In this document: positions 15,696 through 31,940 of the stretch, piece by piece
How positions within the stretch are numbered: position 1 is the first letter of the stretch
Layout: each line of letters opens with the position of its first letter
NCBI RefSeq assembly: GCF_004122115.1
Contig: NZ_SBKP01000002.1
Span: forward strand, 62,001 to 126,000
DNA from: Sphingobium fluviale
GTDB taxonomy: Bacteria > Pseudomonadota > Alphaproteobacteria > Sphingomonadales > Sphingomonadaceae
Direction of reading: 5' to 3'
Length of the DNA stretch: 64,000 nt
Translations under genes and position numbers: made by a program
Notes under the pieces: generated by a model
What the model saw: the letters and a program-made list of their open reading frames with translations, nothing else
The model's database searches: none
Told to the model about the DNA's origin: nothing

Positions 15696-15768
15696 GATCC
15701 ACCCACGCCATTCAGGAAGCTACGATCGCGTATCAAGGATTGCCGATGGGCTGATGGGTCGTCGATTA

Positions 15769-16692
15769 TCATGGCAGAGCGTATCCGGTGACGTTCAGAC
15801 GGTCAGAGTAGCGGTTGAATGCGTTCAAAGTACTCATGCTGATCTGTATCGAGCGACCGTAGATGCTCGTGCGTAGGAAGGCCATCTCACCGGGAAAAGC
15901 CGCCTCGTCTATGTCGATCCACCAGGCTTTGGGCATGCCATCGCTACCGTCAGCCCATCGATAGCCGCGAGCCTTCAGGATGTCCTTTTTGTCAAACGGT
16001 GAGTTGATTGCCCAGCATCGCCACGTAGTTGATCGTGCCGACATCAGTAGCGACTTGAGCGCACTGTCTCCGCTTCCGAGCGGCAGGGCGCGCGAGAGAA
16101 GCTCTATGCCGGCGTGGCAGTCGTGCACCGCCCGGTGTCCGTCATAGTAGAAGCCACGCGCTAAACCGAGGAGGCTAAGTTTAGTGCTTTCAAACCCGTG
16201 CATCGCCCAAGGGATTTCGGCCATCGAACAGGCCCAAGGATTGTCCGCCAACTGAGGGCAGAATCGCTCGACAAAACGCCGGTCGAATGCGGCATTGTGG
16301 GCGATGATGAGGCTGTCGGTAGCGAATGCTGCGATCATCCGAGGATCAATCGCGTGCCCGTAGACCATCGCATCGGTGATGCCGGTTAGTCGTTGAACCT
16401 CCGCCGGGATTGACTTCATCGGCTGACGCAGCCCCGTCAGCGGCGATCCGATACCCACGACACGATCGGCGCCGTCATACCAGAACGGCACCATCGCGAG
16501 TTCGATGATCTCGTCTTGGTTCGGATCAAGTCCAGTGGTCTCAACGTCGAGAAAGATTGCCCGTTTTAAGTGCGGCATTGGCACGAAGCTACTAGGCGGA
16601 TCTGGCGGATCTGGCAGCCGCCGAAGGACACGATAATTGCCGCTTGCCTCGAGGTGCGCGGCGAGCGCTTCAAGCGAGGAGTCGGACACCAC
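15769..16692 (-). CDS. DEDDh 3'-5' exonuclease (DNA polymerase III epsilon-like)
   Basis: Third gene of the SIR2-HerA operon. The ~307-aa protein has the exonuclease motifs FLDVETTGLDP with Asp49 and Glu51, a middle motif LIIAHNAAFDRRF with Asp, and HRAVHDCHAG with the DEDDh His and final Asp, so the active site is complete. The C-terminal part (KKDILKARGYRWADGSDG, KAWWIDIDE) is a domain seen in stand-alone epsilon-like nucleases. The HerA stop codon ends 2 bases before a GTG at 16692, which I take as start; a GTG one codon later is possible, and a longer frame to 16791 overlaps herA. The operon context suggests that it degrades nucleic acid during defence. Confidence 0.85.
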   Translation of the reverse strand: MVSDSSLEALAAHLEASGNYRVLRRLPDPPDPPSSFVPMPHLKRAIFLDVETTGLDPNQDEIIELAMVPFWYDGADRVVGIGSPLTGLRQPMKSIPAEVQRLTGITDAMVYGHAIDPRMIAAFATDSLIIAHNAAFDRRFVERFCPQLADNPWACSMAEIPWAMHGFESTKLSLLGLARGFYYDGHRAVHDCHAGIELLSRALPLGSGDSALKSLLMSARSTTWRCWAINSPFDKKDILKARGYRWADGSDGMPKAWWIDIDEAAFPGEMAFLRTSIYGRSIQISMSTLNAFNRYSDRLNVTGYALP

Positions 16693-16693
16693 G

Positions 16694-18697
16694 CTAGTTT
16701 GCCGCAACCTCGTCGCCGACGGTCGGTCCCAGTTGTAAGGCGGAAGGACGCCCCTCCTCGTGGAACCAGAGATCGACAATCTTGGCGTCATCGCTCGCTG
16801 GAAGCGGTGCGGCGCTCCTGACCTTGAAAGTGGTCGGGAGGTTCACCGAATTTCCGAACACAAGCGCATGCTGCTTTGGCAACGACGGCAAGCGACGCAG
16901 AACGCTATCGGAAATAAACGGGGTCATTTGGCGAATTTGCGAGAGGTCATCAGGATTTTGAATCCTGTGGACCACGAAGTTGGAGCATTGAGACAGCACT
17001 GTCTTCGACAACTCGCTCGGACGTTGTGAAGCTACCAAAAGGAAGAGGCCGTACTTCCGGCCTTCTTTCGATATCCGCTCGAAAATTTTGCCGGCGTCCA
17101 TGGCATATTTTGATGGGACCGAGGCGACGTAGCGATGCGCCTCCTCGAGCAGCAGGTGAACCGGGAATCGGTTGCGTGGATCGGCTCGCCTTAGCTGGCG
17201 AAAAATCATCCGGGCAGTCACGGCACTGACGAGTTCGACGACTTCATCCTCAACGGCGTTCATGTCGATTAGGATGATCTGAGCAGTCTTGGTGTGGACC
17301 GTGCCTGAGGCCTGCAAACCCAAAAGGCCCGCGATAAACGCAGAGGGTTCTCCACCCGCGCAAGCTTCGTGTCGCAGAAAGGCATAGTCCGACCTCTCCT
17401 CTAGCGCCTTGAACCGCGTCACCATTTGGGAGCAGTAGTCTCGGATCTGGCGGTTGCCGTGCGCCTCCTGGTATAGGATCGCCAAATCGATCGCGTCACC
17501 TAGAACCGCGAAATCGAACGGCGAGCCATCATAATCAGGAAACTTCAGATCCGGATCAATAAAGCCGTTACTACCGTCGGTACCGGCGAGATAAACGTAG
17601 GCACTCTGTAGGCCTGGCATATTGCCATAGCTTACAGTGATCCACGCGCCGATCTTTGCGGCGTTGATTTCCTGCGTCCTAAATCGCTGCAGAATGCCAC
17701 GGATTCTTGTTTCCTTTGCACCAGGTTGGGTCTCATCGCTTAGTATCTGAGCGATGCACGTGGCCAAGATGTGATTGCGATAGACGTTTAGCTGAGCGCC
17801 CTGCGATTGGCCAAACAAGGTCGAGAGCCCGAGTGCCATCCGGAGGATTGGTAACTGAGTTCGCTCGCTCGCCTGGAGGAGCAGCTCCCATTCTGACAAA
17901 TCCAGAAACCAGTGCGGAAGGCGAAATCGGTTCGGAGACGCCGATCCATCGAGGATCACCCGCTCGACGCCGATCTTGCCTCCCTTGGCGATCTCGTCAA
18001 ACGCGGAATGATATTCGCCGTTGACGTCGAGCACCACAAACGTCGCGCCGCGCGCATGGTGCTCATCCACCTTTTCGAAAAGCGCTTGGAGGACGGAAGC
18101 GATTGTGCAGGATTTGCCGCTTCCCGTGTTGCCGAGGACCGCAACATGGCCGCCAAAAAAATCGTCTATGCGCACCTTTACTTGGTAGTCTTCGAAGATC
18201 ACCGACTGCCCGATTCCGAGGTTGCGCATCCGGGTCGCTTCTGGAGGGGCGCAAGGATTGTTAAGGTAGCCCACTGAAGGAACGCAATCGCCGTCGGTAT
18301 CGAAGATGCGGTCGAGCTCGGAGTCGAGCGCGTAGAGGGCGTCCGCGAAGAGCGACGGAAAGACCGAGACGCCAAACCGGAACTTGCCTTTGGTTTGCAT
18401 AGGCAACATGCCTACTGGCACGACGTCGAGATATTTCGCGGATTGCGCACGATCGAGCGCGTCACCGTCGTCCTTAGTCGCACTGCTGTCGCGCTCGCGC
18501 AAGCCGACCACTTCCGCGACAACGTAGTCTGATTGAGCGGGGATCATTAGGAATGACCCGAGCCGTGCGACGTAGTGAATGTCATCGAACCCGACGACCG
18601 TAAAATTATCCGTGCCGCGAAGCATCTCGATGACAAACTTGTCCGCTGCGACCGAGATCAGCTTGCCAATCGCGCGCTTGCGATCGTCACTGCTCAC
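16694..18697 (-). CDS. herA: HerA-like DNA-translocating ATPase of a SIR2-HerA defence system
   Basis: Hexameric FtsK/HerA-class ATPase. The 667-aa protein has an N-terminal HAS-barrel-like part (residues ~8-65, GKLISVAADKFVIEML), Walker A LGNTGSGKS (188-196), the insert with VVLDVNGEYHSAF, a Walker B region FPVHLLLEEAHRY near 500 and a sensor/arginine segment (LFLLVASQRPSEL). Its GTG start at 18697 overlaps the SIR2 gene by 11 bases and has aaaggagga before it. In characterised SIR2-HerA systems the two proteins assemble into a large complex in which HerA controls NAD hydrolysis by SIR2. It is followed by the exonuclease gene. Confidence 0.9.
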   Translation of the reverse strand: MSSDDRKRAIGKLISVAADKFVIEMLRGTDNFTVVGFDDIHYVARLGSFLMIPAQSDYVVAEVVGLRERDSSATKDDGDALDRAQSAKYLDVVPVGMLPMQTKGKFRFGVSVFPSLFADALYALDSELDRIFDTDGDCVPSVGYLNNPCAPPEATRMRNLGIGQSVIFEDYQVKVRIDDFFGGHVAVLGNTGSGKSCTIASVLQALFEKVDEHHARGATFVVLDVNGEYHSAFDEIAKGGKIGVERVILDGSASPNRFRLPHWFLDLSEWELLLQASERTQLPILRMALGLSTLFGQSQGAQLNVYRNHILATCIAQILSDETQPGAKETRIRGILQRFRTQEINAAKIGAWITVSYGNMPGLQSAYVYLAGTDGSNGFIDPDLKFPDYDGSPFDFAVLGDAIDLAILYQEAHGNRQIRDYCSQMVTRFKALEERSDYAFLRHEACAGGEPSAFIAGLLGLQASGTVHTKTAQIILIDMNAVEDEVVELVSAVTARMIFRQLRRADPRNRFPVHLLLEEAHRYVASVPSKYAMDAGKIFERISKEGRKYGLFLLVASQRPSELSKTVLSQCSNFVVHRIQNPDDLSQIRQMTPFISDSVLRRLPSLPKQHALVFGNSVNLPTTFKVRSAAPLPASDDAKIVDLWFHEEGRPSALQLGPTVGDEVAAN

Positions 18698-19985
18698 CGT
18701 TTCCTCCTTTGCCGCTCATCGTTTCAAGGACACGCTGCACGGCGTCGTCGATCCGTTCGGTCGGACGCTGTGGCAGGAAGTGTTCGACGATGCTGTCGAA
18801 ATAGTGCGCCCGCTTACCGTCCGGGGCGTCACCCCCGATGATCCAGATCCTTGGATCTGCCAGGTCTCGGAGTTTTCCGATCTCACCGTTCGACGCCGGA
18901 TCAGCGAAGACGATAAGCCGGAACGTGGGGATAGTGAGGGCCTGATAGATGATGTGATTGAGGTGCTCGTCACCGAACGCGAAGCCGGCGGTGATGAGAA
19001 CGCTCTGCTCACGCACGATCCGCGACTGAAACTCGCGAAACAGATCGGCGTAGGGCGAACCAAGGCTCGAATTCTGCTTAGCCGGCGTCGGGTAGATCAT
19101 CATCCGCGCCGGGCTATCTTGGGGCCAAAGCTCGCGAACGGGGAAGAGTCCGTGATCGTCCTCGGTCCAGCTCAAGGAGCCGTGCAGCTTGCACAGATAG
19201 ACGAAGCCATCGACAGCTGACCATTTCCGGCTGGCGATATCAAGTTGCTCGGCAAGCGCGTAGCGAAACGTAGCTGGGTTGAACCGGCGTTCGACAACAC
19301 CGGAGAAGCCGTTCGCGTAGGGCAGGCCGAGCCGGTCCATCGCGCGTTCGCTGAACAAATCGTAGTTGGTAGTGAAAACCCAAGGGCGCGGGAGCGACCG
19401 GTCGCGCAACACTAATTTGCGATAAAATGATTCGTAGAGCGTGAGGACAGCAGTGTCTCCATGGGCAAACAGACCATCTGTACACCGTTCCCAGAGGAAG
19501 CTCTTCACCTTATTGATGATCAGCTCGACTTTTTCGCTGCTGGCAGCATGTTCAGTCTTCGTGCTTCGCGTGAACACGAAGCGTAGGCTGAATAGCAATT
19601 CCATCAAGCGTTCGAGATTGCGCGAATATTCTGTTCCATCAAGCTCGGCACCGAGCTTCTTGAGGAAATCAACATCGGCCTGATCGAGTGACCAAGCCGG
19701 CGACGGAATTAACTCAAGGTCATCGTCATACTCTGGCGGCTTGGGATATCCGCAGAATTCTTTTGCGAGTGGGGCCATGGTCGGTATTCCGCGCTCAAGC
19801 CCCTCCGACCATAATGACGAACACCCGGCGCCCAGCAAGACTGCGACGTTGCGCGCGTTCATCGCTTCGCTAACTGCCTTACGGACCTGCTCCGGCCCCG
19901 TGCTCCAGTCGAGCGTTGCGCTCGCCGCTTCACCTCCGCGCAAGAATTTGAAAGTAGGTTTTGCGCCGGCCTCGCTATCCGCCAT
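18687..19985 (-). CDS. SIR2-family NADase of a SIR2-HerA defence system
   Basis: The 432-aa protein has the NAD-binding loop VAVLLGAGCSSLWSEG (48-62), TTNYD at 205-209 and CKLHGSLSW with the catalytic-type His268. A later FGDEHLNHIIYQAL segment is also typical of SIR2 defence proteins. It is first in the operon SIR2-herA-exonuclease. Its stop overlaps herA, so expression is coupled. ATG 19985 is chosen because aagggg lies ~7 bases before it; an in-frame ATG at 19991 lies too close to the same site. It is clearly different from the SIR2 domain of the ThsA-like protein and lacks SLOG. Confidence 0.87.
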   Translation of the reverse strand: MADSEAGAKPTFKFLRGGEAASATLDWSTGPEQVRKAVSEAMNARNVAVLLGAGCSSLWSEGLERGIPTMAPLAKEFCGYPKPPEYDDDLELIPSPAWSLDQADVDFLKKLGAELDGTEYSRNLERLMELLFSLRFVFTRSTKTEHAASSEKVELIINKVKSFLWERCTDGLFAHGDTAVLTLYESFYRKLVLRDRSLPRPWVFTTNYDLFSERAMDRLGLPYANGFSGVVERRFNPATFRYALAEQLDIASRKWSAVDGFVYLCKLHGSLSWTEDDHGLFPVRELWPQDSPARMMIYPTPAKQNSSLGSPYADLFREFQSRIVREQSVLITAGFAFGDEHLNHIIYQALTIPTFRLIVFADPASNGEIGKLRDLADPRIWIIGGDAPDGKRAHYFDSIVEHFLPQRPTERIDDAVQRVLETMSGKGGNGEQ

Positions 19986-20104
19986 AAACATTCCCCTTAG
20001 AGTCTGGCGCTTAAATATATCGAACCGCCGCACCCAAATGTCGCTATCGTAAGAACTGACGGTCCGCACCTAAAGGCCAAAACGTGACCGCAAACGTCTC
20101 AGAT

Positions 20105-20178
20105 GGTGCCGGCCTGAAGGCCGACACCGATGTGCTGGAATGTCCCCTAGCCCAATCTACGTCTCCGTAAGGAGACGT
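20105..20178. repeat. two strong inverted repeats upstream of the SIR2-HerA operon
   Basis: GGTGCCGGCC-TGAA-GGCCGACACC (20105-20128) pairs over 10 positions with one mismatch. ACGTCTCC-GTAA-GGAGACGT (20159-20178) is a perfect 8-bp repeat. Both lie in the ~240-base spacer between the GIY-YIG gene stop and the SIR2 start, about 120-200 bases upstream of SIR2 translation. Neither has a T-run on the appropriate side. They may be operators of the SIR2 promoter or a terminator zone. Confidence 0.45.
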
Positions 20179-20222
20179 TCCGGACTGTCCGCAATCATTG
20201 CCGCAAACCACAAGTCCTCGCG

Positions 20223-21416
20223 TCACACTGCCGGAATGAACCGGGCATTGGTGGTATCATATCTGTATTCCGTGATGCTCCCGTCGCTGATCCTGGTGAC
20301 CAGCTCATTGATCGCGCTGAGCGGCGCTAGAAACCATTCGCGAGGCTGAACGGTCTTGCCGAAGCGGTCGCCGGCAGAGAGATCGAGCCTTGCTGGCGCA
20401 AGCGCGCGATGGATCAGGTTCTCCAGCTTGGCCCGATTGATGTTGTAGAGCCGGTACTCGGCCACAACCTCGACGTCAGCGAGGAGGAAGGTCGGGTCGT
20501 TCCTTGCATTTGCAATCCGGCTCGCCACAGGCTGGCCGGTCACACCGATCTTGTGGATCAGTTCGCGATGTTCATCGACATAGGGATGGGCCGACTTGCT
20601 GCGCAACACATAGATGGTCCCGCTGGCGAGATCATCGGGTTCAGCGGTATCGCCAAACAACGGCCCCGCGCTTTGTTCGGTGATCCGGCGCGCGGTTTCG
20701 TCGCGATATAGCGCCTTCTGGAAGGAACGTGACAGGACGCTGGCTTCCGTGGCGTTATCGTAGATTACCCGGACCCGGCGGTCCTTGCGCTCGTACTGCG
20801 TTACAAACTCGTCAGTCGAAGCGGCGACATAGGCCAGCTGACCGCCGACAATGAAGAAATTTCCGGGCTGGATCTCCGCCAGCGTCACCTCGGTCTGGTC
20901 GAGCACCTTGGCTTGGCGATTTCCCGATTCGAGATCGGCCTGAATCCGTTGGAACAGCGGCTTGAACGTGTCGAAATCTTCGCACCGTTCGCGGTTAGCG
21001 ATTTCTTCGGCTGCCCGCTTCTCGGCCCGCGGGGTGACGTGGCGAAGCTGGAAGATGTCGTCGTCGGCACCGGGTTCGATGCCCAGTTCGGCGAGAAGGG
21101 CCGTATCATCGAGGCCTACTGGTGCCGTGGCGACGAGAGGGGAGCTGTTGAGAATGTCACCCGTATCCAACGCCGCCAGCAGTTCGCGAGCTTCGGGTTG
21201 AGCGCGCAGGCGATCCAGACGCACGGCATAGAGCCGCTCGAAAATATCACGATCTTCGCCGTGCTGCGGCAGGCGGCCGTGTTCGGTCACGAAACGCTGA
21301 ATATCCTCGAACCCGGCAATGATCCGCTCCTGCAGCGGGGTCAGCGACCGCGCAGGCTCCGTTGCCGTCTCGACGCCTAGTTCCGCCAGAAGTTCAAGGT
21401 CGCTCAATTCAGCCAT
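20223..21416 (-). CDS. GIY-YIG nuclease protein of a restriction-like cassette
   Basis: The 397-aa protein carries a C-terminal GIY-YIG domain of the T5orf172/MUG113 type (GTIYVLRSKSAHP, then IHKIGVTGQPVASRIANA, ending in AKLENLIHRALAPARL with the metal-binding Glu, and PREWFLAPLSAINE). The N-terminal ~280 residues are not recognised but contain a repeated motif, DLELLAELGVE near residue 6 and DTALLAELGIE near 112. Its ATG at 21416 overlaps the helicase stop by 8 bases, so the nuclease is coupled to the helicase. The likely role is DNA cleavage after translocation by the helicase. Confidence 0.85.
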   Translation of the reverse strand: MAELSDLELLAELGVETATEPARSLTPLQERIIAGFEDIQRFVTEHGRLPQHGEDRDIFERLYAVRLDRLRAQPEARELLAALDTGDILNSSPLVATAPVGLDDTALLAELGIEPGADDDIFQLRHVTPRAEKRAAEEIANRERCEDFDTFKPLFQRIQADLESGNRQAKVLDQTEVTLAEIQPGNFFIVGGQLAYVAASTDEFVTQYERKDRRVRVIYDNATEASVLSRSFQKALYRDETARRITEQSAGPLFGDTAEPDDLASGTIYVLRSKSAHPYVDEHRELIHKIGVTGQPVASRIANARNDPTFLLADVEVVAEYRLYNINRAKLENLIHRALAPARLDLSAGDRFGKTVQPREWFLAPLSAINELVTRISDGSITEYRYDTTNARFIPAV

Positions 21417-23472
21417 CAGCGGCTGCCTTCGTCGCATGGCGCTGGAGGAAGGCGACGCCTTCCGCCATCTTGCGCTCCCAGGCATCCTGCGAGGTCAGCG
21501 AGGGCAGCCGGCCCCGCTCGCGCTTGAACTCGAGCGCACGCTCGGTCAGCGCGCGGGCATCCTCGTAGGTCAGCTTGTCCTTCTTGGCGTTGATCACTGC
21601 CTGGACCTGCAACAGCGTCTTTTCATCCATCGCCTTGGCAAGCACGGCGTAGGTCGCGCTGAAAGGATTGACCCGGTCGATGAGATCAATGTCGAGGTCG
21701 GTGACGCTAAGCGCGAATTTGCGCACGCCGTCGATGAATGCGGTATTGGCCTTGAGATCACCATCGACGCTGGCGCCGCCAATCGCAGCCTTCGCCTGCT
21801 GAGTCAGCGTCATGGCGGCGATTGCGTGCTGGCGCACCGCCTCCTGGTCCTCTGCACTAAGTTCGGGGTACTTCTCCCGGATGATCTTGCCCATCTTCAG
21901 CTGGGTCAGCTCCTCCGGCACGACTTCCGGGTCGAACATGCCGCGCTCCAGCGCAGCCTTGTCCTGCACGAAGCTGGCGATCACCTCGTTCAGGTCTTCA
22001 CGACAGATGCGGGTTGCCTCAATGCTGGTGGGCAGCTTCAGACCCTTGATCTCGAAATGCATCTGGCCCTGGGCATTGACGCCGACGTTGAGCTCGCCCT
22101 CCTTGTAGCCGTCCTCGCCATAGTCGAAGCCCGGCTTGGGGCCGGCGTCCTTGGGCGTGAAATCAAAGCGCGGTGCCAGCACCTGTTCCATCAGCAGGCT
22201 GGCCGCAATTGCCTTCAGGTAGTCGTTGATCGCATCGACCACGAGCGGGTCATCCGCCGCCGGCTCCGCAATCAGGTTGGTGAAGCGGGCGCGGGTCTTT
22301 CCCGGGGCATCGCGGGTGGCGCGGCCGATGATCTGAATGATCTCGGTCAGGCTCGAGCGATATCCGACGGTCAGGGCATGTTCGCACCAGATCCAGTCGA
22401 AGCCTTCCTTCGCCATGCCCAGTGCGATGATCACGTCGACGAAATCGCGGTTTTCGCGCGCCTTGGGAGACTTGAGCGCCGAAACCACCCGGTCTCGCTT
22501 GGCGGCATCGTCGTCGACCAGATCGGCCACCTTGATAGCATGACCAGCCGTCGTGCGGATCAGGTGGAAGCCTGTCTCGGGATCGACACCCTGCCAATCT
22601 CCGAGGTGGTTCATGATGTCCTCGGCCTCGCGGTGCTTGTCTTTGAGGCTTTCCTTCGAATTGACCGACGGGATGTGGACGATGGTTTTCACCGTCGGGT
22701 CCAGCAGCGCCGAAATCTTCTCTGTGTAGGGACCGGTGTAGAAGCTGTAGCCGATGTCGAGCACCTTGAGGTGTTCGTACCCGTTGAGCTGCTCGTAATA
22801 GGTGTAGGTGACGGTCTCGAACCGGGTCTCGTCCTCCGGAGCCAGCACGGGAATCGCATCGCCCCGGAAATAGCTGCCAGTCATCGCGACGATGTGCGCC
22901 TTGTCGCGCCCGATCAGCTGCGCAAGCTGGGCGCCGAGCCGGTTGCCGGCATCGGCGGAGACGTGGTGGAACTCGTCGATGGCCACCAGGCGGTTGTCGA
23001 ACGCCTCGACCCCCAATTCATCGAACGCAAAGCGGAATGTCGCGTGGGTGCAGACCAGCACCTTGGCATCGCTGGTGAGGAATTCGCCGACCGCCTTCAC
23101 CTTGGACTTGGCGACCTTGGGATCGTCGGCGCCCGGTGTGTTGCACAGGTTCCACTGCGGAGCGACCACCCAGTCGGTATAGAAACCGTACTTGCTCAGC
23201 GGCTCGCTGCCGAAGCTTGCTCCGATCGAGCGTTCGGGCACGCAGATGATCGCTTGGCAGACGCCCTGATTGGCCAGTTTGTCGAGCGCAACGAACATCA
23301 GCGCGCGGCTCTTGCCCGAGGCCGGCGGCGACTTGATCAGGAGGTATTGCTCGCCGCGCTTTTCATAGGCGCGCGCCTGCATGGGCCGCATGCCCAGCTC
23401 GTCCGATTTCGCCGATGCGCCGGTGTGGGCTGTCTTGAAGGAGACGGCGGGAATGATCTTTTCATCAGCCAT
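21409..23472 (-). CDS. DEAD/DEAH-type helicase of a restriction-like cassette
   Basis: SF2 helicase/translocase of 687 aa resembling the motor parts of type I and III restriction enzymes. Walker A is SPPASGKS (48-55), the Walker B box is DEFH (166-169), motif III is MTGSYF, and motif VI lies in IIQIIGRATRDAPGKTRARF. The C-terminal ~250 residues are helical and unassigned. It starts 7 bases after the fic stop and overlaps the GIY-YIG gene, so the three form one transcription unit. It probably supplies ATP-driven DNA translocation for the separate nuclease. Confidence 0.88.
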   Translation of the reverse strand: MADEKIIPAVSFKTAHTGASAKSDELGMRPMQARAYEKRGEQYLLIKSPPASGKSRALMFVALDKLANQGVCQAIICVPERSIGASFGSEPLSKYGFYTDWVVAPQWNLCNTPGADDPKVAKSKVKAVGEFLTSDAKVLVCTHATFRFAFDELGVEAFDNRLVAIDEFHHVSADAGNRLGAQLAQLIGRDKAHIVAMTGSYFRGDAIPVLAPEDETRFETVTYTYYEQLNGYEHLKVLDIGYSFYTGPYTEKISALLDPTVKTIVHIPSVNSKESLKDKHREAEDIMNHLGDWQGVDPETGFHLIRTTAGHAIKVADLVDDDAAKRDRVVSALKSPKARENRDFVDVIIALGMAKEGFDWIWCEHALTVGYRSSLTEIIQIIGRATRDAPGKTRARFTNLIAEPAADDPLVVDAINDYLKAIAASLLMEQVLAPRFDFTPKDAGPKPGFDYGEDGYKEGELNVGVNAQGQMHFEIKGLKLPTSIEATRICREDLNEVIASFVQDKAALERGMFDPEVVPEELTQLKMGKIIREKYPELSAEDQEAVRQHAIAAMTLTQQAKAAIGGASVDGDLKANTAFIDGVRKFALSVTDLDIDLIDRVNPFSATYAVLAKAMDEKTLLQVQAVINAKKDKLTYEDARALTERALEFKRERGRLPSLTSQDAWERKMAEGVAFLQRHATKAAADG

Positions 23473-23479
23473 GCGGCAA

Positions 23480-24616
23480 TTACTTTCGGAACAGTTCGAG
23501 ATAGTCGTGGAACAGGAAGAGTCGGTTTCGCCTCTGACCTGTCACCTCCAGAAGCACGCCATGTTCCACCATATCACTGATTAGCGAGGCGGCCGTATTG
23601 GTCGTAGTGGACAGCATCACGGTGACGGCCTTCACGTCGACGACTGGGCGAGCATAGAGATTGCGCATCAGCTGTTGGGCATTTTCCTGACGACGATGGC
23701 TGAAACGGGGCAATACTTCGCGTTCGATCCTCTCCTTGAGCGCCAGAATCGCCCGGAACACGCCGGCTGACGCGCGAGCGGTTTCCTCTACGCCGTGCAG
23801 AAAGAAGATCAGCCAATCGCGCAGGTGGTTACCCTGGCGCACGGCCATCATATGGTCGACATAGGCCGTTTTGTTCCGCTCGAAGTAGTCCGACAGATAC
23901 AGCGCGGGCTTCACCAACAACCGTTCCGAGGCAAGGTAGAGCGAGATCATCAGCCGGCCCAATCGCCCGTTGCCATCAAGGAACGGGTGGATCGTCTCGA
24001 ACTGGTAGTGCGCGATCGCGATCTTGATCAGCGGCGGCACCATGATCTCGGCATTGTGCAGGAACTTTTCGAGGTCGCTCATCAGCTCCGGCACGTGGTC
24101 GTGGTGCGGCGGAACGAAGGCTGCATTCTTCAGGCTCACCCCTATCCAGTTCTGGCTGATGCGGAATTCACCCGGCCTCTTGGTCTCGCCGCGCACTCCG
24201 TCGAGCAGAATGGCGTGGGTATCGCGCAGCAGGCGATTCGACAGGGGAAGGCGTTCCAGGCTTTCGATCGCGAAGGTGATGGCGCGAATGTAGTTCTGCA
24301 CCTCACTCCAGTCATCGCGCACTTCAGGCAGCAGATCCTCTGCATCCTTGAACGCATCTTCGATGTTGGTCTGGGTGCCTTCGATACGGCTTGATTGCGT
24401 GGCTTCCTTGGCCACGTACATGCGTATGAAGAATTCTATGTCGGGAATCAGCTGGGCAAAGGCATTAAGCTCGCCAAGCGCCCGGTCTGCCTGGCCAAGC
24501 AGCTGTAGCACCTGCGGATCGGATATCGTCCAGCCATGGTTGATCGCTTCTGGCAGGAAGCTGCGATATTCCAGCTGGGGTTCGTGCCGCCCCGCCTGAT
24601 AGGCTGAAAGATCCAT
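23480..24616 (-). CDS. Fic-family protein (putative AMP transferase)
   Basis: The 378-aa protein has the complete Fic motif HPFLDGNGRLGR (210-221) with catalytic His210, so nucleotide transfer from ATP to a protein hydroxyl is possible. An inhibitory-helix motif of the form S-x3-E-G (SSRIEG, 75-80) lies N-terminal to the Fic core, which makes it a self-inhibited class II Fic. The C-terminal ~80 residues look like a winged helix (VKAVTVMLSTTTNTAASLISDM). ATG 24616 gives the usual start; a TTG 21 bases upstream is possible. The gene sits between the methyltransferase half and the helicase-nuclease half of the cassette, so it may regulate or guard the nuclease. Confidence 0.87.
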   Translation of the reverse strand: MDLSAYQAGRHEPQLEYRSFLPEAINHGWTISDPQVLQLLGQADRALGELNAFAQLIPDIEFFIRMYVAKEATQSSRIEGTQTNIEDAFKDAEDLLPEVRDDWSEVQNYIRAITFAIESLERLPLSNRLLRDTHAILLDGVRGETKRPGEFRISQNWIGVSLKNAAFVPPHHDHVPELMSDLEKFLHNAEIMVPPLIKIAIAHYQFETIHPFLDGNGRLGRLMISLYLASERLLVKPALYLSDYFERNKTAYVDHMMAVRQGNHLRDWLIFFLHGVEETARASAGVFRAILALKERIEREVLPRFSHRRQENAQQLMRNLYARPVVDVKAVTVMLSTTTNTAASLISDMVEHGVLLEVTGQRRNRLFLFHDYLELFRK

Positions 24617-24656
24617 ATTTGAGAAAGCGCCCCTCAATTTGCCATTGGAATTTCCA

Positions 24657-24743
24657 TATGTCAGATTCGCGCTGACACAAAATCCTTATTTCAGATTTTG
24701 GCGCATTTTCTGACTTACGAAAATCACTATGTCAAATTCACGC
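24657..24743. repeat. three imperfect direct repeats upstream of the fic gene
   Basis: TATGTCAGATTCGCGC (24657-24672) and TATGTCAAATTCACGC (24728-24743) share 14 of 16 bases. TATTTCAGATTTTGGCGC (24687-24704) is a looser copy. They lie in the 138-base spacer between the fic start and the stop of the preceding gene, 41 to 127 bases upstream of the fic ATG. The uneven spacing excludes a CRISPR array. Operator copies for a cassette regulator are the simplest explanation. Confidence 0.5.
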
Positions 24744-24775
24744 CTTGAGATGGGCGCCAGGAAGAAGGATGCGGA

Positions 24776-25531
24776 TCAGGCCTCAGTCCGGTCTTTCTCG
24801 ATGGCTTTTTCAAGCCATTTCGGCAGATCGTTGATCTGCGATGCAAACGTGTTTTCCCGGACGTCCTGCCAGAACGCGACGATGGCATCGGAGAACCGAT
24901 CAAGATCATCGTCGGCTACGGTGAGGTCGGTATAGTCAGGCGGAAAACGCAGCAGCGGCTCGGGGAAATCATCGCGCTTCAGGAACTGCGGAGCATCCTT
25001 GCGCAGCTTTTCAAAGGATATGCCCTCGCCATGCTTGTAGACGTTCACGACGAGGTGGCATTGATGCAGCGGCTGGAAATAGGGGCGTGAACGGACAGGC
25101 CAGTCCCAGCATTCCAGAAAGTCGAAAAGCTGGTCGATGGTTGCCTTCCAAAGTGCTGCCCGCGTGTGACTGCCATGGATAAGCCGACCCAGTTCGCGCG
25201 TGATCCAATCGCGCAGCTGCTTTTCCCATTCGTGGTACATGCCCGCGATCACGCTCAATCGCGTCGCCTTCTGCAGGTCTTCGAGTTGCAGGTAGAATGA
25301 GGCGCTTTCGTCCCATGCCTGCTGATATGCATCCGCAGGATCATCCCGGTCAGGATTGAAGTAAGGTGCCCGACTGGCCAACCAGTCCTCTGCGTACCGG
25401 TCTGCATCCTCTTTCATGGTGCCGAACTGTGACAGCAGGCGTGTTCTGGCCTCCGACACATAGAACTGATGGCTAGCGATCAAGCCGTCGCGAAACGGCC
25501 CCCACATCTGGAACAGGACCCGGTCGACCAT
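24776..25531 (-). CDS. uncharacterised protein of the restriction-like cassette
   Basis: I do not recognise this 251-aa soluble protein. It is rich in aromatic and acidic residues and probably mostly helical (LIASHQFYVSEARTRLLSQF, YHEWEKQLRDWITRELGRLI, DQLFDFLECWDWPVRSRPYFQ), with an acidic end (DLTVADDDLDRFSDAIVAFWQ). The WEKQLRDW and HQCHLVVNVYKHGEG segments look conserved. It starts 6 bases after the methyltransferase stop and is surely co-transcribed with it. It could be a specificity or stability partner of the methyltransferase, or the sensor for the Fic/helicase part; nothing in the sequence decides. Confidence 0.6.
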   Translation of the reverse strand: MVDRVLFQMWGPFRDGLIASHQFYVSEARTRLLSQFGTMKEDADRYAEDWLASRAPYFNPDRDDPADAYQQAWDESASFYLQLEDLQKATRLSVIAGMYHEWEKQLRDWITRELGRLIHGSHTRAALWKATIDQLFDFLECWDWPVRSRPYFQPLHQCHLVVNVYKHGEGISFEKLRKDAPQFLKRDDFPEPLLRFPPDYTDLTVADDDLDRFSDAIVAFWQDVRENTFASQINDLPKWLEKAIEKDRTEA

Positions 25532-25537
25532 TAATCG

Positions 25538-28264
25538 TCACGCCGCCTTCGCGTTGGTCATCCGGGTGTAGAGCTCGAACAGCTTTTCCAGCCGCTCGGT
25601 GTCGTTGCGGAAGCGTCGGCCGATGTAGATGCGCTCCAGCACCTCGTCGTTGCGCTCATGCGCGTGGCGAAGGTTCTCCGGCATCTTTTCAGGATCGTAC
25701 AGGTCCGCGATGGTTGCCGGGAAATGGGCCTCGCGCGCAAGCAGGATGTCCTCGGCGCAGCGGGTGAGATCGGCTTTGTTCTGCTCGGTCATCTTCGGAA
25801 CGGGGAAAGTGTTCCAGCCCATGGTGTTTGAATAGCGGAAATCGGTTTTCATTTTACCGCAGACGGTCGCGATCCACACCAAATGGAGACGCGATGCGAT
25901 AAGAGACATATTCCAAAGCGGCCCGTCGTAGACCGCTAACGCAAGGTTCGAAACGCGCACATCAGGTTCGAGGAGGCCGCATGGCAGATAAGGACGGCGT
26001 TCGGACGACACGCTCGGCACCACGATAGTCTGATGATGGCCGATGATGGTGCGCTCAAACTTGTAGGGTGTATCGAGGCCGGCGCGCCCGCGCTCGCTGC
26101 CGTTCAGGCGATACTCTCGGATATTCGCCAGTCGCGCCGCGATCGGCGGAATGGAATAGGCTAGCTCGGCATCCTCGTCGGAAATCCAGAGGCAATAGCG
26201 CTGCAAGCCATTGATGAATTCATTGGAGCCCAGGATCGGCTTGATCAGCTTGGTCGCCTCCGGATAGGCCTGAACCAGCTCCTGTTTCTCCTGCGCGGAA
26301 AGCAGCAGGTTTCCGCGATCCCTCGGGATGTTGCCACCGAACATCGTTGCCACGTTGGAGACCGGATCGGATGAACGCTCAACGATGACGGTGTCAGCGG
26401 CTGACAGGTAGGGGTTGATGTTCGCAACCTCCTTGCGCGTCTCGTCCGTGAAAATGAATTTCTTGGATTCTCCCTTTCCGGTCACGCCGACGATTACGCA
26501 GGTGACCTGGGCGTTCCGCGCCGCGTTGTTGCCCCACATGAAGTTGTCATGGGCAAAGTAGATGCACTGCCCATTGCGGAAAATGCGAGGCCAGATGAGC
26601 GGCACCTGCACACCTTGGCAAATCGAGTTGGTCGAAACGAACGCGAAGCGCCCACCGTGCTTGATATAATCCGAAGCCTTCCAGAACCATCCGGCAATGT
26701 AGTCGACGGCCCGCACGTCCTGTCGGCCAGTTTTGAAGGTTTTAAGATCGTCCTTCTGCTCGCTGGTCTGAAATTTGTCACCGATGTACGGCGGGTTACC
26801 GCAGATGTAGGTCTCCCCGCCCTCATTCGAAAAATCGATCTCCGACTGTGCCAGAGGGGTGCCGAACAAATCATCGGCTTGTGCACGAACACCCGTTCCG
26901 GCCGGCGGACACAGGCTCAACCAGTCGAGCCGAAGTGCGTTTCCGCGGAAAATCCAGTTCTGGCTATCGAGAGGGAGGAACTCCGCCAACGCCTCCTTCT
27001 GGCCGCGGTAGATGACATCGCACTGGTACTCGGCGATGATCAGCGCCAACCGGGCAATCTCGGCCGGAAAATCGCGCAGCTCAATGCCACGGAAGTTGGT
27101 GAGCGGGATGTCGCTGCGCCGGTCGGGCTCGCCCCGCAGTGCGTTGATCTCGGCTTCGATCTCCCGCATCTGCTTGTAGGCGATGACAAGGAAATTGCCC
27201 GATCCGCAGGCCGGATCGAACACTCGGATCTTGGCCATCCGGTTGCGCAGGTTGAGGAGTTTGCGCGGGTTGTCGCCCGCTTCCGCCAGCTTCTCGCGCA
27301 GATCGTCGAGGAACAGCGGGTTCAGCACCTTCAGGATGTTCGGCACGCTGGTGTAATGCATGCCGAGCGCGCCGCGCTCCTCGTCGTCAGCCACCGCCTG
27401 GATCATGCTACCGAAGATGTCGGGGTTGATCTTTTTCCAGTTGAGGTTGCCGATGTGCACCAGATACGACCGGGCGATCCGGCTGAACCGTGGCGTCTCG
27501 GTGCTGCCGGAAAAAAGCTGGCCGTTCACATAGGGAAAGCCATTGGCATAGCGCGGGATGTTGGCGGCTGCGCGATCGGCGAGCTTAGTGTCCATCGCCC
27601 GGAAGATTTCGCTGATCACATGATGCGTGTCGGACGAATCCCTCGCGCTGATTTGTTCGACCGTCCTCGTGAACAGGCCCTCGCCGTGGAAAATGTCGGT
27701 ATCCTCGGCAAAGAAGCAGAAGATCAGCCGGGCCATGAAATGGTTCATGTCGGGCCGCCGCTCAGCGGTTGCCCACTCCGGATTGTCCTTCAGCAGCTCG
27801 ACATAGAGCTTGTTGAGCCTGCTTGTGGCCCGGATATCGAACGTGCTTTCCCGGATCTGCTTGACGGTGGTGATGCCGGCAAGGGGAAGGAACACGCCGA
27901 AGTGGTCGGGGAAATCCGCGTAGGCGCAGGAGACGATCTCGCCGCTGGCGAGATCCTCGGCCTGGAATTGGTCGCCATCGGTCGCAAGAATGAACTTGGC
28001 CTTGGCCGCCGCCGTTTTCGGACTGTCGCGCAACGCCTTGAGGGTGCCGTCGACACATCCCGCGTCGCAGGTCGCGATATGGATGTTGCTGCGCTGGAGC
28101 ACGCCGCCCGACACGTCAGATGCATTGGAGGCACCCTGACGCAGCTTCTTGATCGTGGTCGCCTTGTTGCCGAAGGCTTCAAGGAAGGCGAACGGAAATT
28201 CCGCGCGGTCAAAAGGCTGCGCGGCTAATTCGGAAATAGCTTGTTCGATCTCTACTGCATTCAT
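25538..28264 (-). CDS. MmeI-like adenine-specific DNA methyltransferase
   Basis: The 908-aa protein has the layout of type IIG MmeI-family enzymes: an N-terminal domain (~1-130), a helical linker (~170-330, with MNHFMARLIFCFFAEDT and HYTSVPNILKVLNPLF), the N6-adenine methyltransferase core with SAM motif DPACGSGNF (350-358) and catalytic NPPY (490-493), then a target-recognition domain and a C-terminal helical part. In MmeI the N-terminus is a PD-(D/E)xK nuclease. Here no D...ExK is visible (FILATDGDQFQAEDL occupies that place), so it probably only methylates, and cleavage is left to the GIY-YIG protein. It is first in the minus-strand cassette. Confidence 0.86.
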   Translation of the reverse strand: MNAVEIEQAISELAAQPFDRAEFPFAFLEAFGNKATTIKKLRQGASNASDVSGGVLQRSNIHIATCDAGCVDGTLKALRDSPKTAAAKAKFILATDGDQFQAEDLASGEIVSCAYADFPDHFGVFLPLAGITTVKQIRESTFDIRATSRLNKLYVELLKDNPEWATAERRPDMNHFMARLIFCFFAEDTDIFHGEGLFTRTVEQISARDSSDTHHVISEIFRAMDTKLADRAAANIPRYANGFPYVNGQLFSGSTETPRFSRIARSYLVHIGNLNWKKINPDIFGSMIQAVADDEERGALGMHYTSVPNILKVLNPLFLDDLREKLAEAGDNPRKLLNLRNRMAKIRVFDPACGSGNFLVIAYKQMREIEAEINALRGEPDRRSDIPLTNFRGIELRDFPAEIARLALIIAEYQCDVIYRGQKEALAEFLPLDSQNWIFRGNALRLDWLSLCPPAGTGVRAQADDLFGTPLAQSEIDFSNEGGETYICGNPPYIGDKFQTSEQKDDLKTFKTGRQDVRAVDYIAGWFWKASDYIKHGGRFAFVSTNSICQGVQVPLIWPRIFRNGQCIYFAHDNFMWGNNAARNAQVTCVIVGVTGKGESKKFIFTDETRKEVANINPYLSAADTVIVERSSDPVSNVATMFGGNIPRDRGNLLLSAQEKQELVQAYPEATKLIKPILGSNEFINGLQRYCLWISDEDAELAYSIPPIAARLANIREYRLNGSERGRAGLDTPYKFERTIIGHHQTIVVPSVSSERRPYLPCGLLEPDVRVSNLALAVYDGPLWNMSLIASRLHLVWIATVCGKMKTDFRYSNTMGWNTFPVPKMTEQNKADLTRCAEDILLAREAHFPATIADLYDPEKMPENLRHAHERNDEVLERIYIGRRFRNDTERLEKLFELYTRMTNAKAA

Positions 28265-28359
28265 TCTGTGACACTACGCCGGAGCCTGGTGATGTCGCAA
28301 GTTTCGAGATGGGGAATGTCTTCCCCTGCGGCCGAGCCAAGGTCTCTGCCGGCCCCTTC

Positions 28360-28376
28360 TGCGGGGACACCCCGCA
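28360..28376. repeat. hairpin in the spacer upstream of DUF932
   Basis: TGCGGGG-ACA-CCCCGCA is a perfect 7-bp inverted repeat 36 bases before the two-stem leader. It is in the divergent promoter region between the methyltransferase (minus) and the DUF932 gene (plus). A second weaker pairing, CCCGT with ACGGG, follows at 28381-28402. It could be an operator or the first stem of the leader RNA. Confidence 0.4.
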
Positions 28377-28411
28377 ACGCCCCGTTCAGAGTGAGAGACG
28401 GGCCAGAAATT

Positions 28412-28461
28412 CCGTGACGGAGCAGGGCTGAGAGAGAGGCTTTCGGCGCCCGTCATGGAGG
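28412..28461 (+). promoter_or_regulatory. two-stem leader structure before DUF932 (copy A)
   Basis: Outer stem: CCGTGACGG (28412-28420) pairs with CCGTCATGG (28450-28458), 9 pairs including one G-U. Inner hairpin: GCTGAGAG (28427-28434), loop AGAGG, CTTTCGGC (28440-28447), 8 pairs including two G-U. The ribosome site GGAGG (28457-28461) overlaps the last two bases of the outer stem and lies 7 bases before the ATG at 28469. The same fold with an identical loop occurs before parB at 29734. A cis-acting translational control element is likely. Confidence 0.6.
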
Positions 28462-28468
28462 TTTTCCC

Positions 28469-29662
28469 ATGAATATGCAGGTTCTCGACGCCCGCCGTGA
28501 CGCAAGCGGCGGCTACAAGGTTGATGTATCGCGCGGAGAGCGCGTGGGGCGCGTATCGTCGGAGTGGTTCTCGCGGCCCGACGATGAACGCTATCTCTCG
28601 CTGGGTGATCTGGCCCGCTCGGTGAGCGGCCGGTCCGAGCGCAGCCGGACCCGTGTTGTGGAAACGGCCCTCATCCATGTCGAGGCGAACCGCAACGATC
28701 CCGAACGTCTGTCGCTGGTCCTCCCCGGCGCCGACGCGCCCGTCGCCCCGACGCATTGGAGCTTCGGCCAATTGGCGAGTCAGGTTGGCGCACCTGCCGC
28801 CTATTTGCGCCAGCTTCCCGCGCCGCTCGCGGCGATCAACTTGCAATACGGGCTGACTTCGCATCGAGCCGAGCAGATCAAGACGCTGGAGACCGACAAC
28901 GGCCGAGTGGAACTGCGCGCGGTGACGGGGCCTGATTATGGTCGGATCTACGACCATGAACTCGTCGAAGCCGTCCAGAAGATCGCCGGTAACGGCACGG
29001 GCGATACCCGCTGGAAGGTCCCTGGCGTGCTCGACTGGTCTACCGGCATCTACAATCCGCGTGTCGACATCACCCGCGACACGACCACCCTCTATGCCTC
29101 GGACCGCGACGTGTTCCTGTTCCTGGTTGACGATCTCAACCCGATCGAGGCCGGACGACTGCCCGACGGCTCGCCGGATCTTTATTTCCGGGGGTTCTAC
29201 TGCTGGAACTCCGAGGTCGGTGCCAAGACGCTGGGCATGGCGAGTTTCTACCTGCGCGCGGTTTGCCAGAACCGGAACCTCTGGGGCGTCGAGGATTTCG
29301 AGGAAATTACCATCAGGCACAGCAAACATGCCGCCAACCGGTTCGCCCATGAGGCAGCCCCGGCCCTCGAAGGCTTTGCCAACTCTTCTCCGCAGCCCTT
29401 CGTGAACGGCATCAAGGCCGCCCGCGAGCGCATCGTTGCCCGCAACGACGAGGATCGCAGTGATTTCCTGCGTAAGCGCGGATTTTCCAAGGCCGAGACG
29501 GGCAAGATCATCGAAACCGTGCTCGCCGAGGAAGGTCGCCCACCCGAATCGATCTTCGATTTCGTACAGGGCATCACCGCGCTGGCTCGCAACAAGTCCC
29601 ACCAGGATGCCCGCCTGGACATGGAGGGCAAGGCAAAGAAACTGCTCGATCGGGTCCACTGA
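28469..29662 (+). CDS. DUF932 protein (phage/plasmid-like TIGR03299-type)
   Basis: A 397-aa soluble protein of the DUF932 family, common on plasmids, phages and ICEs and of unknown biochemical function. Recognisable parts are WSFGQLASQVGAPAAYLRQLP (a helical motif ~90-110), AVTGPDYGRIYDHELVEAV, DRDVFLFLVDD and FYLRAVCQNRNLWGVE followed by ITIRHSKHA in the last third. It opens the maintenance region of the ICE and is followed by parB on the same strand, 130 bases later. Both genes are preceded by the same two-stem leader, so they are probably co-regulated. Confidence 0.78.
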   Translation: MNMQVLDARRDASGGYKVDVSRGERVGRVSSEWFSRPDDERYLSLGDLARSVSGRSERSRTRVVETALIHVEANRNDPERLSLVLPGADAPVAPTHWSFGQLASQVGAPAAYLRQLPAPLAAINLQYGLTSHRAEQIKTLETDNGRVELRAVTGPDYGRIYDHELVEAVQKIAGNGTGDTRWKVPGVLDWSTGIYNPRVDITRDTTTLYASDRDVFLFLVDDLNPIEAGRLPDGSPDLYFRGFYCWNSEVGAKTLGMASFYLRAVCQNRNLWGVEDFEEITIRHSKHAANRFAHEAAPALEGFANSSPQPFVNGIKAARERIVARNDEDRSDFLRKRGFSKAETGKIIETVLAEEGRPPESIFDFVQGITALARNKSHQDARLDMEGKAKKLLDRVH

Positions 29663-29733
29663 TTCCGGCGGACAGGTGCCGGTTTCCCTGCGTTGCGCTG
29701 CCCCTTCGAAAGGAAGAGGGCGGCGCTTCGCTT

Positions 29734-29784
29734 CGTGACGGGTTGAGGCGTCGAGAGAGAGGCTCTCGGCAGCCCGTCGCGGAG
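29734..29784 (+). promoter_or_regulatory. two-stem leader structure before parB (copy B)
   Basis: Outer stem: CGTGACGGG (29734-29742) pairs with CCCGTCGCG (29773-29781), 9 pairs including one G-U. Inner hairpin: GTCGAGAG (29750-29757), loop AGAGG, CTCTCGGC (29763-29770), 8 pairs including one G-U. The ribosome site GGAG (29781-29784) starts on the last stem base, 8 bases before the ATG at 29793. Compared with copy A, five stem pairs differ by single changes that keep pairing, and the loop is identical. Confidence 0.6.
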
Positions 29785-29792
29785 TAAACACC

Positions 29793-31940
29793 ATGCCAAC
29801 AGCTGCCCAGAAGATCACCCTGTCGTCTTCGCGCGATATCCCTTTCAACAAGCTTGTGCTGAGCCAGTCGAATGTCCGGCGCGTGAAGGCCGGCGTGTCG
29901 GTTGAGGAACTGGCCGAATCCATTGCCCGGCGCGGCCTCATCCAGTCGCTGCATGTCCGACCCGTGCTGGATACCGACGGCGTCGAAACCGGCATGTTCG
30001 AGGTGCCGGCGGGCGGGCGCCGCTATCGGGCGCTTGAACTTCTCGCCAAGCAGAAGCGCCTCGCCCGCACCACGCCGGTGCCCTGCGTCGTCGGCGACGC
30101 CGCCAGCGACGTCCTCATCGATGAAGTCTCGCTGGTCGAGAACATCGAACGCGCACCACTCCATCCTCTCGACCAATTCCGCGCCTTCCAGACCTTACGG
30201 GACAAGGGCATGACCGAGGAAGCCATCGCCGCAGCCTTCTTCGTTGGGGTCAACGTGGTGAAGCAGCGGCTGCGTCTCGCCAGCACAGCCCCCTCCCTGC
30301 TCGAAATCTACGCCGAGGATGGCATGACGCTCGAACAGCTCATGGCCTTCACGGTGTCCGAAGATCACGCCCGGCAGGTACAGATCTGGGAAGCAATCCG
30401 TGACAGCTGGCAGAAGGAGCCCTGGCAAATCCGCCGCATGCTCACCGAGACCACTGTCCGCGCCTCGGACAAGCGCGTGCTGTTCGTCGGCATCGATGCC
30501 TATGAAGCCGCGGGCGGCATCGTCCTGCGCGATCTCTTCCAGTCCGACGATGGTGGCTGGCTCCAGGATGTGGGTCTGCTCGACCGGCTCGTCGCCGAGA
30601 AGCTGCACGCCGAGGCCGACAGGATCGGCGCCGAAGGCTGGAAGTGGGTCGATGCGAGCCTCAGCGTTCCCTACGGCGTGACCCACGGCATGCGCGAGAT
30701 CGTCGGCATACCAATCGATATGACCGAAGAGGAGCAGGCAACCCGCGCCGGATTGCAGGCGGAACTCGATAGTCTGACCGAGCAGTACGAGGATGCGGAT
30801 GAGCTCCCCGACGAAATCGACCAGCGGCTCGGCGAAATCGAGGCCGCGCTCGAGGCGCTCGACAACCGGCCCATGCGCTACGATCCCGCCGACGTTGCAA
30901 TCGCAGGCGTATTCGTCACCATCGATTCCGATGGCGCGCTGATCGCCGATCGCGGTTATGTCCGCCCCGAGGATGAGGCACCCGTCGAAGCCGTCTCCGA
31001 TGTCGAAGGCGTGGTCGATGGCACACAAGGCGATACCTCGCGCGCCCTTGCCGTCAGGCCGGTAGTGGTCAATTTCGGGGGCCAGCCGGCCCCGATCGAC
31101 GAGGAAGAGGACGACGGCATCAAGCCGCTGCCCGAACGCCTGGTCATCGAACTGACCGCTCACCGCACGCTCGCCTTGCGTGACGCCGTGGCCCAGAACC
31201 CGCACATCGCGATGACCGCGTTGCTGCACAAGCTGGTTTCGGACGCCTTCCACCACCGTTCCGCCAATGGCGCGCTGGAAGCCCAGGTCCGGCACATTTT
31301 CTTCCCCGCGCAGGCCGACGACCTCGGTAGCAGCCAGTCGGTCAAGTCGGTCGATGAGCGCAACGAGCTCTGGAAGAACCGCATCCCCGCTGACAATACC
31401 AGCTTGTGGGACTGGCTGGCAGGTCTCGGCGACGTCGACCGCATGGCGCTCCTCGCCCACTGCGTCAGCTACGGCGTCAACGCCCTCTACGAGCGGCCCA
31501 ATCCGTACAGCAGTTCAGGCGTCAGCGAACACGGCCTGCAACTGCGCCTCGACCAGGCGGACCGCCTCGCGCGCGAAACCGGGCTCGATATGGTGCAAGT
31601 CGGATGGCGACCGACCGTCGGCAACTATCTCGGCCGCGTGACCAAGGCCCGCATCCTCGAAGCCGTGCGCGAGGGCGCCGGCGATCGGGCTGCTCAACTC
31701 ATCGATCACATGAAGAAGGGCGACATGGCGAAGGAGGCCGAGCGCCTGCTTGCCGATTCGGGTTGGCTCCCCGAGCCGCTGCGCCTCGCCGAGCCCGACG
31801 AGACGGCCGCCGCCAGTGTTGCGCCTGCCGACCAGGGCGAGGGCGATGCCGCGCTCCCGGCCTTCCTCAACGACGACAATGATGATGAGGAGCCGGCCGA
31901 AGGCGACGACGAAGACGCGCTTTCGATCGCTGCCGAATGA
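29793..31940 (+). CDS. parB: ParB-like nuclease-domain protein
   Basis: A 715-aa protein with an N-terminal ParB/Srx domain: IPFNKLVLSQSNVRRV (10-30), ELAESIARRGLIQSLHVRP, PAGGRRYRALELLAKQ and LIDEVSLVENIERAPLHPLDQF. A helix-turn-helix follows (GMTEEAIAAAFFVGVNVVKQRLRLA). The rest is long and acidic, with a low-complexity Glu/Asp end (DDNDDEEPAEGDDEDAL). It is much longer than partition ParB proteins and there is no parA gene next to it, so it is the ICE-type ParB. It may act on DNA or CTP rather than partition a plasmid. A strong terminator follows at 31945. Confidence 0.85.
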   Translation: MPTAAQKITLSSSRDIPFNKLVLSQSNVRRVKAGVSVEELAESIARRGLIQSLHVRPVLDTDGVETGMFEVPAGGRRYRALELLAKQKRLARTTPVPCVVGDAASDVLIDEVSLVENIERAPLHPLDQFRAFQTLRDKGMTEEAIAAAFFVGVNVVKQRLRLASTAPSLLEIYAEDGMTLEQLMAFTVSEDHARQVQIWEAIRDSWQKEPWQIRRMLTETTVRASDKRVLFVGIDAYEAAGGIVLRDLFQSDDGGWLQDVGLLDRLVAEKLHAEADRIGAEGWKWVDASLSVPYGVTHGMREIVGIPIDMTEEEQATRAGLQAELDSLTEQYEDADELPDEIDQRLGEIEAALEALDNRPMRYDPADVAIAGVFVTIDSDGALIADRGYVRPEDEAPVEAVSDVEGVVDGTQGDTSRALAVRPVVVNFGGQPAPIDEEEDDGIKPLPERLVIELTAHRTLALRDAVAQNPHIAMTALLHKLVSDAFHHRSANGALEAQVRHIFFPAQADDLGSSQSVKSVDERNELWKNRIPADNTSLWDWLAGLGDVDRMALLAHCVSYGVNALYERPNPYSSSGVSEHGLQLRLDQADRLARETGLDMVQVGWRPTVGNYLGRVTKARILEAVREGAGDRAAQLIDHMKKGDMAKEAERLLADSGWLPEPLRLAEPDETAAASVAPADQGEGDAALPAFLNDDNDDEEPAEGDDEDALSIAAE

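Follow-up and report, generated by a model that had tools for sequence, protein, structure and literature searches.

Members of a conserved RNA leader family precede unrelated mobile-element genes in Alphaproteobacteria and may sequester their Shine-Dalgarno sequences

Two structured leaders in a mobile-element locus

We analyzed a 64-kb stretch of DNA, referred to as the window, in which a DUF932-like gene and a ParB-like gene are followed by two uncharacterised frames, a strawberry-notch-type ATPase, toprim and YAcAr. The window also holds a replication initiator, a relaxase and T4SS genes (to 63 kb), with an integrase at 10.5 kb. The 397-aa product of the first gene matched Pfam DUF932 weakly (18.6 bits; cut-off, 23), and its plasmid relatives are annotated as DUF932. 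From the integrase up to the DUF932 gene (positions 13626-28264), the cargo encodes SIR2/STALD, HerA-type, DEAD-box helicase, Fic and MmeI-type restriction-modification proteins and looks like a defence island.

The first-pass annotation of this DNA had claimed that the regions before these two genes fold in the same way, into a 9-bp outer stem and an 8-bp inner hairpin with the loop AGAGG, and that the ribosome site begins within the 3′ end of the outer stem. Both the coordinates and the anatomy proved correct (Table 1), and GGAG is found at that place in both leaders. The five stem differences between the two copies are, as it had stated, all single-sided and keep the pairing. On the sense strand, the fold energies were -28.2 kcal/mol for the DUF932 leader (z, -4.57) and -30.8 kcal/mol for the parB leader (z, -5.20), and 0 of 200 shuffled sequences were equally stable. 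The antisense strand folded more weakly (-14.6 kcal/mol, z of -1.21, and -19.6 kcal/mol, z of -2.49, respectively).

Table 1. Positions in the window of the two leaders, their parts and the genes that follow them
Feature	Position	Strand	Evidence
DUF932 leader, tandem AGAGK motif (AGAGTGAGAG), 24 nt 5′ of hairpin	28388..28397	+	motif count
DUF932 leader, pre-hairpin stretch; part pairs with SD and spacer (extension helix)	28398..28411	+	fold, permutation test
DUF932 leader, two-stem hairpin ending in SD	28412..28461	+	fold, covariance model, covariation
DUF932 leader, outer-stem arms	28412-28420 / 28450-28458	+	fold
DUF932 leader, inner-stem arms	28427-28434 / 28440-28447	+	fold
DUF932 leader, AGAGG loop	28435-28439	+	fold
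DUF932 leader, SD (GGAGG)	28457-28461	+	
DUF932-like gene, 397 aa	28469..29662	+	weak Pfam DUF932 match; plasmid relatives annotated DUF932
parB leader, tandem AGAGK motif, one mismatch (AAAGGAAGAG)	29709..29718	+	motif count
parB leader, pre-hairpin stretch; 3′ end pairs with SD	29719..29733	+	fold, permutation test
parB leader, two-stem hairpin ending in SD	29734..29784	+	fold, covariance model, covariation
parB leader, outer-stem arms	29734-29742 / 29773-29781	+	fold
parB leader, inner-stem arms	29750-29757 / 29763-29770	+	fold
parB leader, AGAGG loop	29758-29762	+	fold
parB leader, SD (GGAG)	29781-29784	+	
ParB-like gene, 715 aa, ParB_N domain	29793..31940	+	domain match

Overall, the earlier account was correct, and the case is stronger than it stated. 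Three features go beyond it: a third copy in the same genome, a motif of the form AGAGKNAGAG upstream of the hairpin and an extension helix over the Shine-Dalgarno sequence (SD). The third copy (G000:C8:6605-6656), detected by covariance-model search, lies 5′ of an ArdC gene with a metallopeptidase domain. The genome contains five ArdC-type loci, one of which carries the element. Two of these loci lie on opposite strands within about 2 kb of each other (G000:C8:6605-8274), with the element at the first only.

Distribution of the family and the genes behind it

Homologous leaders exist in other genomes. We trained a covariance model (R1) on 19 leaders, 18 of them distinct, taken from the window and from its genus; at an E of ≤0.001 it found the element in 26 of the 385 class genomes sampled. 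A second model (R2), built from 80 matches, had matches at an E of ≤0.01 in 36 of 398 genomes sampled across the phylum. Of these 36, 34 fall within the class of the window, and in every one of them the best E was under 0.001. The two out-of-class matches (E of about 0.01) are probably due to chance; L261 lies inside a 271-codon open frame, and L262 is no more than an inverted repeat that lacks the remaining features of the element.

Scanning named genomes with a DNA pattern yielded at least 120 stretches. Among the matches listed, R1 confirmed 79 of the 80 contigs with names. Listed contigs with a genus or order in the title belong to Alphaproteobacteria, and several carry no more precise a title than "Proteobacteria" or "uncultured bacterium." Among the matches listed, a single title, that of a Bryobacteraceae MAG contig, clearly pointed elsewhere, and this contig was not confirmed by R1. 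Two of eight contigs from viral collections that carried the pattern were confirmed by the model, and six were not. Using the leaders alone as BLAST queries (E up to 1), we retrieved 108 and 132 plasmid records, chance matches included.

The first-pass annotation knew of no described element with this look, and the comparison with Rfam 15 agrees with it: no family reached its gathering score anywhere in the window, and at an E of up to 10 the region 28200-29900 gave four weak matches, all below the gathering scores and none over the hairpins. We read the leaders as members of a conserved RNA family carried on plasmids and on ICEs/genomic islands of Alphaproteobacteria. A weak copy (33.5 bits) was also seen on the Dinoroseobacter shibae plasmid pDSHI04 (L240, ~4981-5230), where it precedes an unannotated 64-codon ParB-like remnant behind repC.

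We collected 207 copies, 75 from the genome samples and 132 from the pattern scan (among the matches listed); 200 of them are distinct over the hairpin plus 45 nt. About 92 stand before ParB-like genes, 53 before ArdC-like genes and 42 before DUF932-like genes, a few of the last being broken. Of the rest, 13 precede an unnamed family of about 185 aa and 3 one of about 125 aa, which leaves 4 before other or short frames. The start codon follows GGAG by 7 to 9 nt in 199 of the 207 copies. The same distance was found in 43 of 49 further matches, and in 43 of the 49 the encoded protein resembles one of these families. The genes behind the element thus fall into at least four families without detected mutual similarity, apart from one chained cluster that was split by motif. 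That the shared leader is not a simple duplication of coding DNA, as had been argued from two genes, therefore holds for at least four unrelated families, which rules out a leader duplicated along with one gene. Searched against Pfam at an E of up to 10 and against NCBIfam at an E of up to 0.01, a representative of the ~185-aa family had no match. Members of 182 to 185 aa were seen at L095, L096, L103, L113, L119, L139, L154 and other loci.

On annotated plasmids, the carrier genes occur in two kinds of run. In one, ArdC and ParB each have an element and are separated by DUF2958, and hypothetical genes and a strawberry-notch gene follow; one of the hypothetical genes, of about 182 aa, has an element of its own. 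In the other, DUF932 and ParB, each with an element, are followed by strawberry-notch and toprim genes.

Selection on the RNA fold, the AGAGK motif and predicted SD occlusion

We examined covariation in three alignments of model matches, A4, A5 and A7, with 71, 117 and 39 distinct rows, respectively; the pattern behind A5 had already set part of both stems, and weak sources were omitted from A7. Paired cells made up 97.0, 97.6 and 97.1% of A4, A5 and A7, compared to 90.1, 92.6 and 87.7% when partners were shuffled. Homologous leaders that keep the sequence and break the pairing, which would have spoken against the fold, were looked for and not seen, with about 97% of cells paired. The first-pass annotation had called its single-sided changes suggestive and had named double compensatory changes in both stems as the support to look for. 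Such two-sided changes are present at 11 of 17 pairs in each of the three alignments. Double-change cells numbered 82, 108 and 56, which none of 500 shuffles reached and which is far above slid controls; these figures overstate independence, since the structure guided the alignments, the rows are related, and A5 and A7 were selected in the ways just given. Direct reading leads to the same picture. Inner stems of the forms GAGAG/CUCUC, GGAGA/UCUCC, GGAGG/CCUCC, GGGAG/CUCCC and CGAG/CUCG all carry the same loop, and in a few copies the outer stem is rebuilt with other letters: CGAAGGG/CCCUUCG, CGACAGG/CCUGUCG and GCGGCGAA/UUCGCCGC (L242, L252, L268).

Counted on the sense strand of 70 distinct elements, G-U wobbles far outnumbered A-C mismatches (177 versus 22, the cells not being independent). 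This bias argues that a sense-strand RNA folds, rather than that a DNA palindrome is kept, and points to the sense-strand RNA as the folding species. Helices that covary beyond shuffled controls and a fixed 5′-leader place in more than one gene family, both found here, are what is expected of a conserved cis-acting structured RNA.

The motif AGAG[G/T]NAGAG was present without mismatch 22 to 25 nt 5′ of the hairpin in 144 of 199 distinct copies and with at most one mismatch in 190, while shuffled upstream sequence leads one to expect 0.015 exact occurrences. Since this stretch lies outside both R1 and R2, it supports the family independently. Conservation drops sharply 5′ of it. The hairpin loop reads AGAGG in 158 and AGAGT in 13 of the 199 distinct copies; the upstream motif thus repeats the loop motif, and many leaders contain three copies of AGAGK. 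Pairing of an upstream GAGAG with the CUCUC arm was considered and dropped by inspection, since the arm varies (UCUCC, CCUCC) and the upstream motif is constant. In many ParB leaders, including that of the window (29692-29730), the AGAGK motif lies in the loop of an extra G+C-rich hairpin of the GCGCUGCCC/GGGCGGCGC type. This hairpin was not taken into the model, being strong in many ParB leaders and weak or absent elsewhere, as judged by eye. A scan of linear DNA for E. coli-type consensus sites found no promoter-like site near the leaders (28200-29900); transcription of the AGAGK motif is for this reason only likely, and a role of the motif alone at the DNA level is conceivable.

For the approximately 14 nt between the tandem motif and the hairpin, pairing to the SD and spacer is predicted. 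When this pairing was computed for 198 leaders around an artificial hairpin core, cognate partners gave a mean energy of -27.45 kcal/mol, compared to -26.50 kcal/mol (standard deviation, 0.13) for permuted partners and -26.58 kcal/mol (0.13) when permutation was confined to a gene family; in neither case did any of the 60 permutations attain the cognate mean. The proportion of leaders with four or more extension pairs did not differ (0.859 cognate versus 0.853 permuted), so that the support covers pairing strength only. GGAG is predicted to be less open in the leaders (mean, 0.16) than in 28 other genes (mean, 0.35; Mann-Whitney p, 0.0002), with values of 0.075 and 0.005 in the DUF932 and parB leaders of the window. 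The start codon was no more hidden in the leaders than in the 28 control genes (0.48 versus 0.49). The upstream AGAGK stretch is predicted to be no more than half open (0.51).

Possible functions and relation to known systems

The most fitting interpretation of a common leader that is predicted to hide the SD and that repeats a short motif is a translational regulon under a trans-acting factor. According to our model, the mRNA would form a hairpin of an outer stem, an asymmetric internal loop, an inner stem and an AGAGK pentaloop, which the ~14 nt on its 5′ side would lengthen by pairing with the SD and spacer. The extended hairpin would hide the SD and keep translation low by default. Three AGAGK copies, two of them upstream of the hairpin and one in its loop, may form a composite recognition site, read by a factor (an RNA-binding protein or a small RNA) that would shift the balance and so set the translation of ArdC, DUF932, ParB and other carrier genes jointly. 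These genes plausibly serve the establishment of incoming DNA. The ArdC of R388 is reported to be required in the recipient and not in the donor (PMC7213743), and proteins of invading elements repeatedly contain ParB-like, ArdC and strawberry-notch domains (PMC5512222). To this reading, a cis-acting RNA family in which the SD of mobile-element genes is sequestered and the AGAGK motif is read in trans, we assign a probability of roughly 0.6. What the computation shows is the structure, its selection as RNA, the conserved motifs and spacing, the predicted occlusion and the spread over unrelated genes; control of the downstream genes, low default translation and a factor, with its identity, the direction in which it acts and any timing during transfer, are what we infer from these.

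A more specific version, which we put forward tentatively and consider rather doubtful, is an establishment regulon, in which one factor, reading the three AGAGK sites, would hold the ArdC, DUF932, ParB and other mRNAs untranslated in the resident cell and release them jointly in a recipient that lacks it. Such release would amount to zygotic induction at the level of translation.

Among the other readings, a constitutive mRNA element, which would protect the message, offer an RNase processing site or set the strength of the SD with no switch and no factor, is the least improbable, if still unlikely. It fits a strong stem that ends at the SD with fixed spacing, and it needs no factor, none being known; however, it leaves unexplained why the loop stays invariant on a varying stem and why its motif recurs in tandem at a constant distance upstream, and the predicted extended stem covers the SD, lowering translation rather than protecting it. 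More improbable again is an element that acts as DNA; it would be the operator of a DNA-binding regulator or, on the incoming strand, a single-stranded promoter like Frpo/ssi. Hairpins do precede the ArdC-type genes here, leading-region genes of other plasmids use Frpo (PMC11541004), and the AGAGK motif, taken by itself, might be a site in DNA. Folding of the template strand, however, predicts the reverse of the wobble bias given above, no -35/-10-like site of the E. coli-type consensus was found near the leaders, and GGAG with a fixed start-codon distance at the hairpin end is most simply explained if the hairpin is transcribed.

Two further readings have very little probability in our view. 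At nut or put sites, RNA polymerase is modified, and antitermination or attenuation of this sort would account for a small loop motif with a linear motif 5′ of it and for the long gene runs behind the element in some plasmids. Against it, the fixed 7 to 9 nt to the start codon and the SD pairing point to translation, the element recurs within gene runs, before ParB, and 28200-29900 contains no terminator-like site. An RNA thermometer or a small-ligand riboswitch, about equally improbable, would suit an occluded SD and an outer stem with G-U and A-U pairs close to its base. Yet the stem is very stable at 37°C, a thermometer needs neither an invariant loop nor a tandem linear motif, and the carrier genes suggest no common metabolite for a riboswitch.

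Structured leaders over an SD are well known as a kind. Leaders targeted by CsrA/RsmA, controlled by a protein or by small RNAs, combine a short motif in a loop and in linear RNA near an occluded SD and are common to several mRNAs; the core motif of CsrA is GGA. The present element resembles them in its repeated loop and linear motif near the SD, but its motif is AGAG[G/T].

The nearest functional parallel that we have seen, by analogy, may be EGeRS1 of the pLS20 family of Bacillus plasmids, although it is much longer. Its description reports structured repeats directly 5′ of the RBS of several establishment genes, including ardC, and proposes an action in RNA or single-stranded DNA (PMC8708921). 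The same text gives EGeRS1 as about 500 to 600 bp with many inverted repeats and a conserved branch of ~325 nt, on Gram-positive plasmids, and as blocking readthrough from upstream promoters (PMC8708921), which sets it apart from an element of about 75 nt with one hairpin and a tandem motif. Frpo/ssi sequences are likewise hairpins repeated before early genes of conjugative elements but contain -35/-10 elements within folded DNA (PMC11541004). In the element described here, no -35/-10 elements were found at 28200-29900 (linear DNA, E. coli-type consensus), the strand that folds is the sense strand, as RNA, rather than the template, and the hairpin carries the SD. STAXI, a structured element near genes for single-stranded-DNA-binding and antirestriction proteins, consists of tandem pseudoknots (PMC2864571), and no Rfam family reached threshold in the window. 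Neither in the literature searched nor in Rfam 15, which represents one published survey of 224 RNAs only in part, did we find a description of this family, of the composite AGAGK site or of its spread over unrelated mobile-element genes.

To our knowledge, the timing of anti-restriction and partition-like genes in alphaproteobacterial mobile elements has been little studied. A leader of about 75 nt that is common to unrelated genes and present in 26 of the 385 class genomes sampled marks a candidate regulon accessible to direct tests. Such a leader could also serve, through what precedes a gene, as a simple guide to establishment genes without an assigned function, such as DUF932 and the ~185-aa family.

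For DUF932, we compared 30 loci from the genus sample, which are fewer than all the matches there. All 10 loci with an identity of at least 83% to that of the window carry the element. No element match at an E of up to 0.01 was obtained at the other 20 (69 to 75% identity), nor at a DUF932 paralogue (G000:C11:171090). Across these 30 loci, then, the leader follows a mobile-element lineage and not the gene, and the 20 more distant loci rule it out as a property of DUF932 itself. A joint alignment of the leaders of the 20 element-free loci gave no consensus fold. About 100 nt 5′ of the DUF932 start codon, these loci (L014-L033) show a purine tract of the GGGAAGGGGG type, often a hairpin of variable sequence, and then an SD; the sister DUF932 lineage perhaps has another leader class of like architecture.
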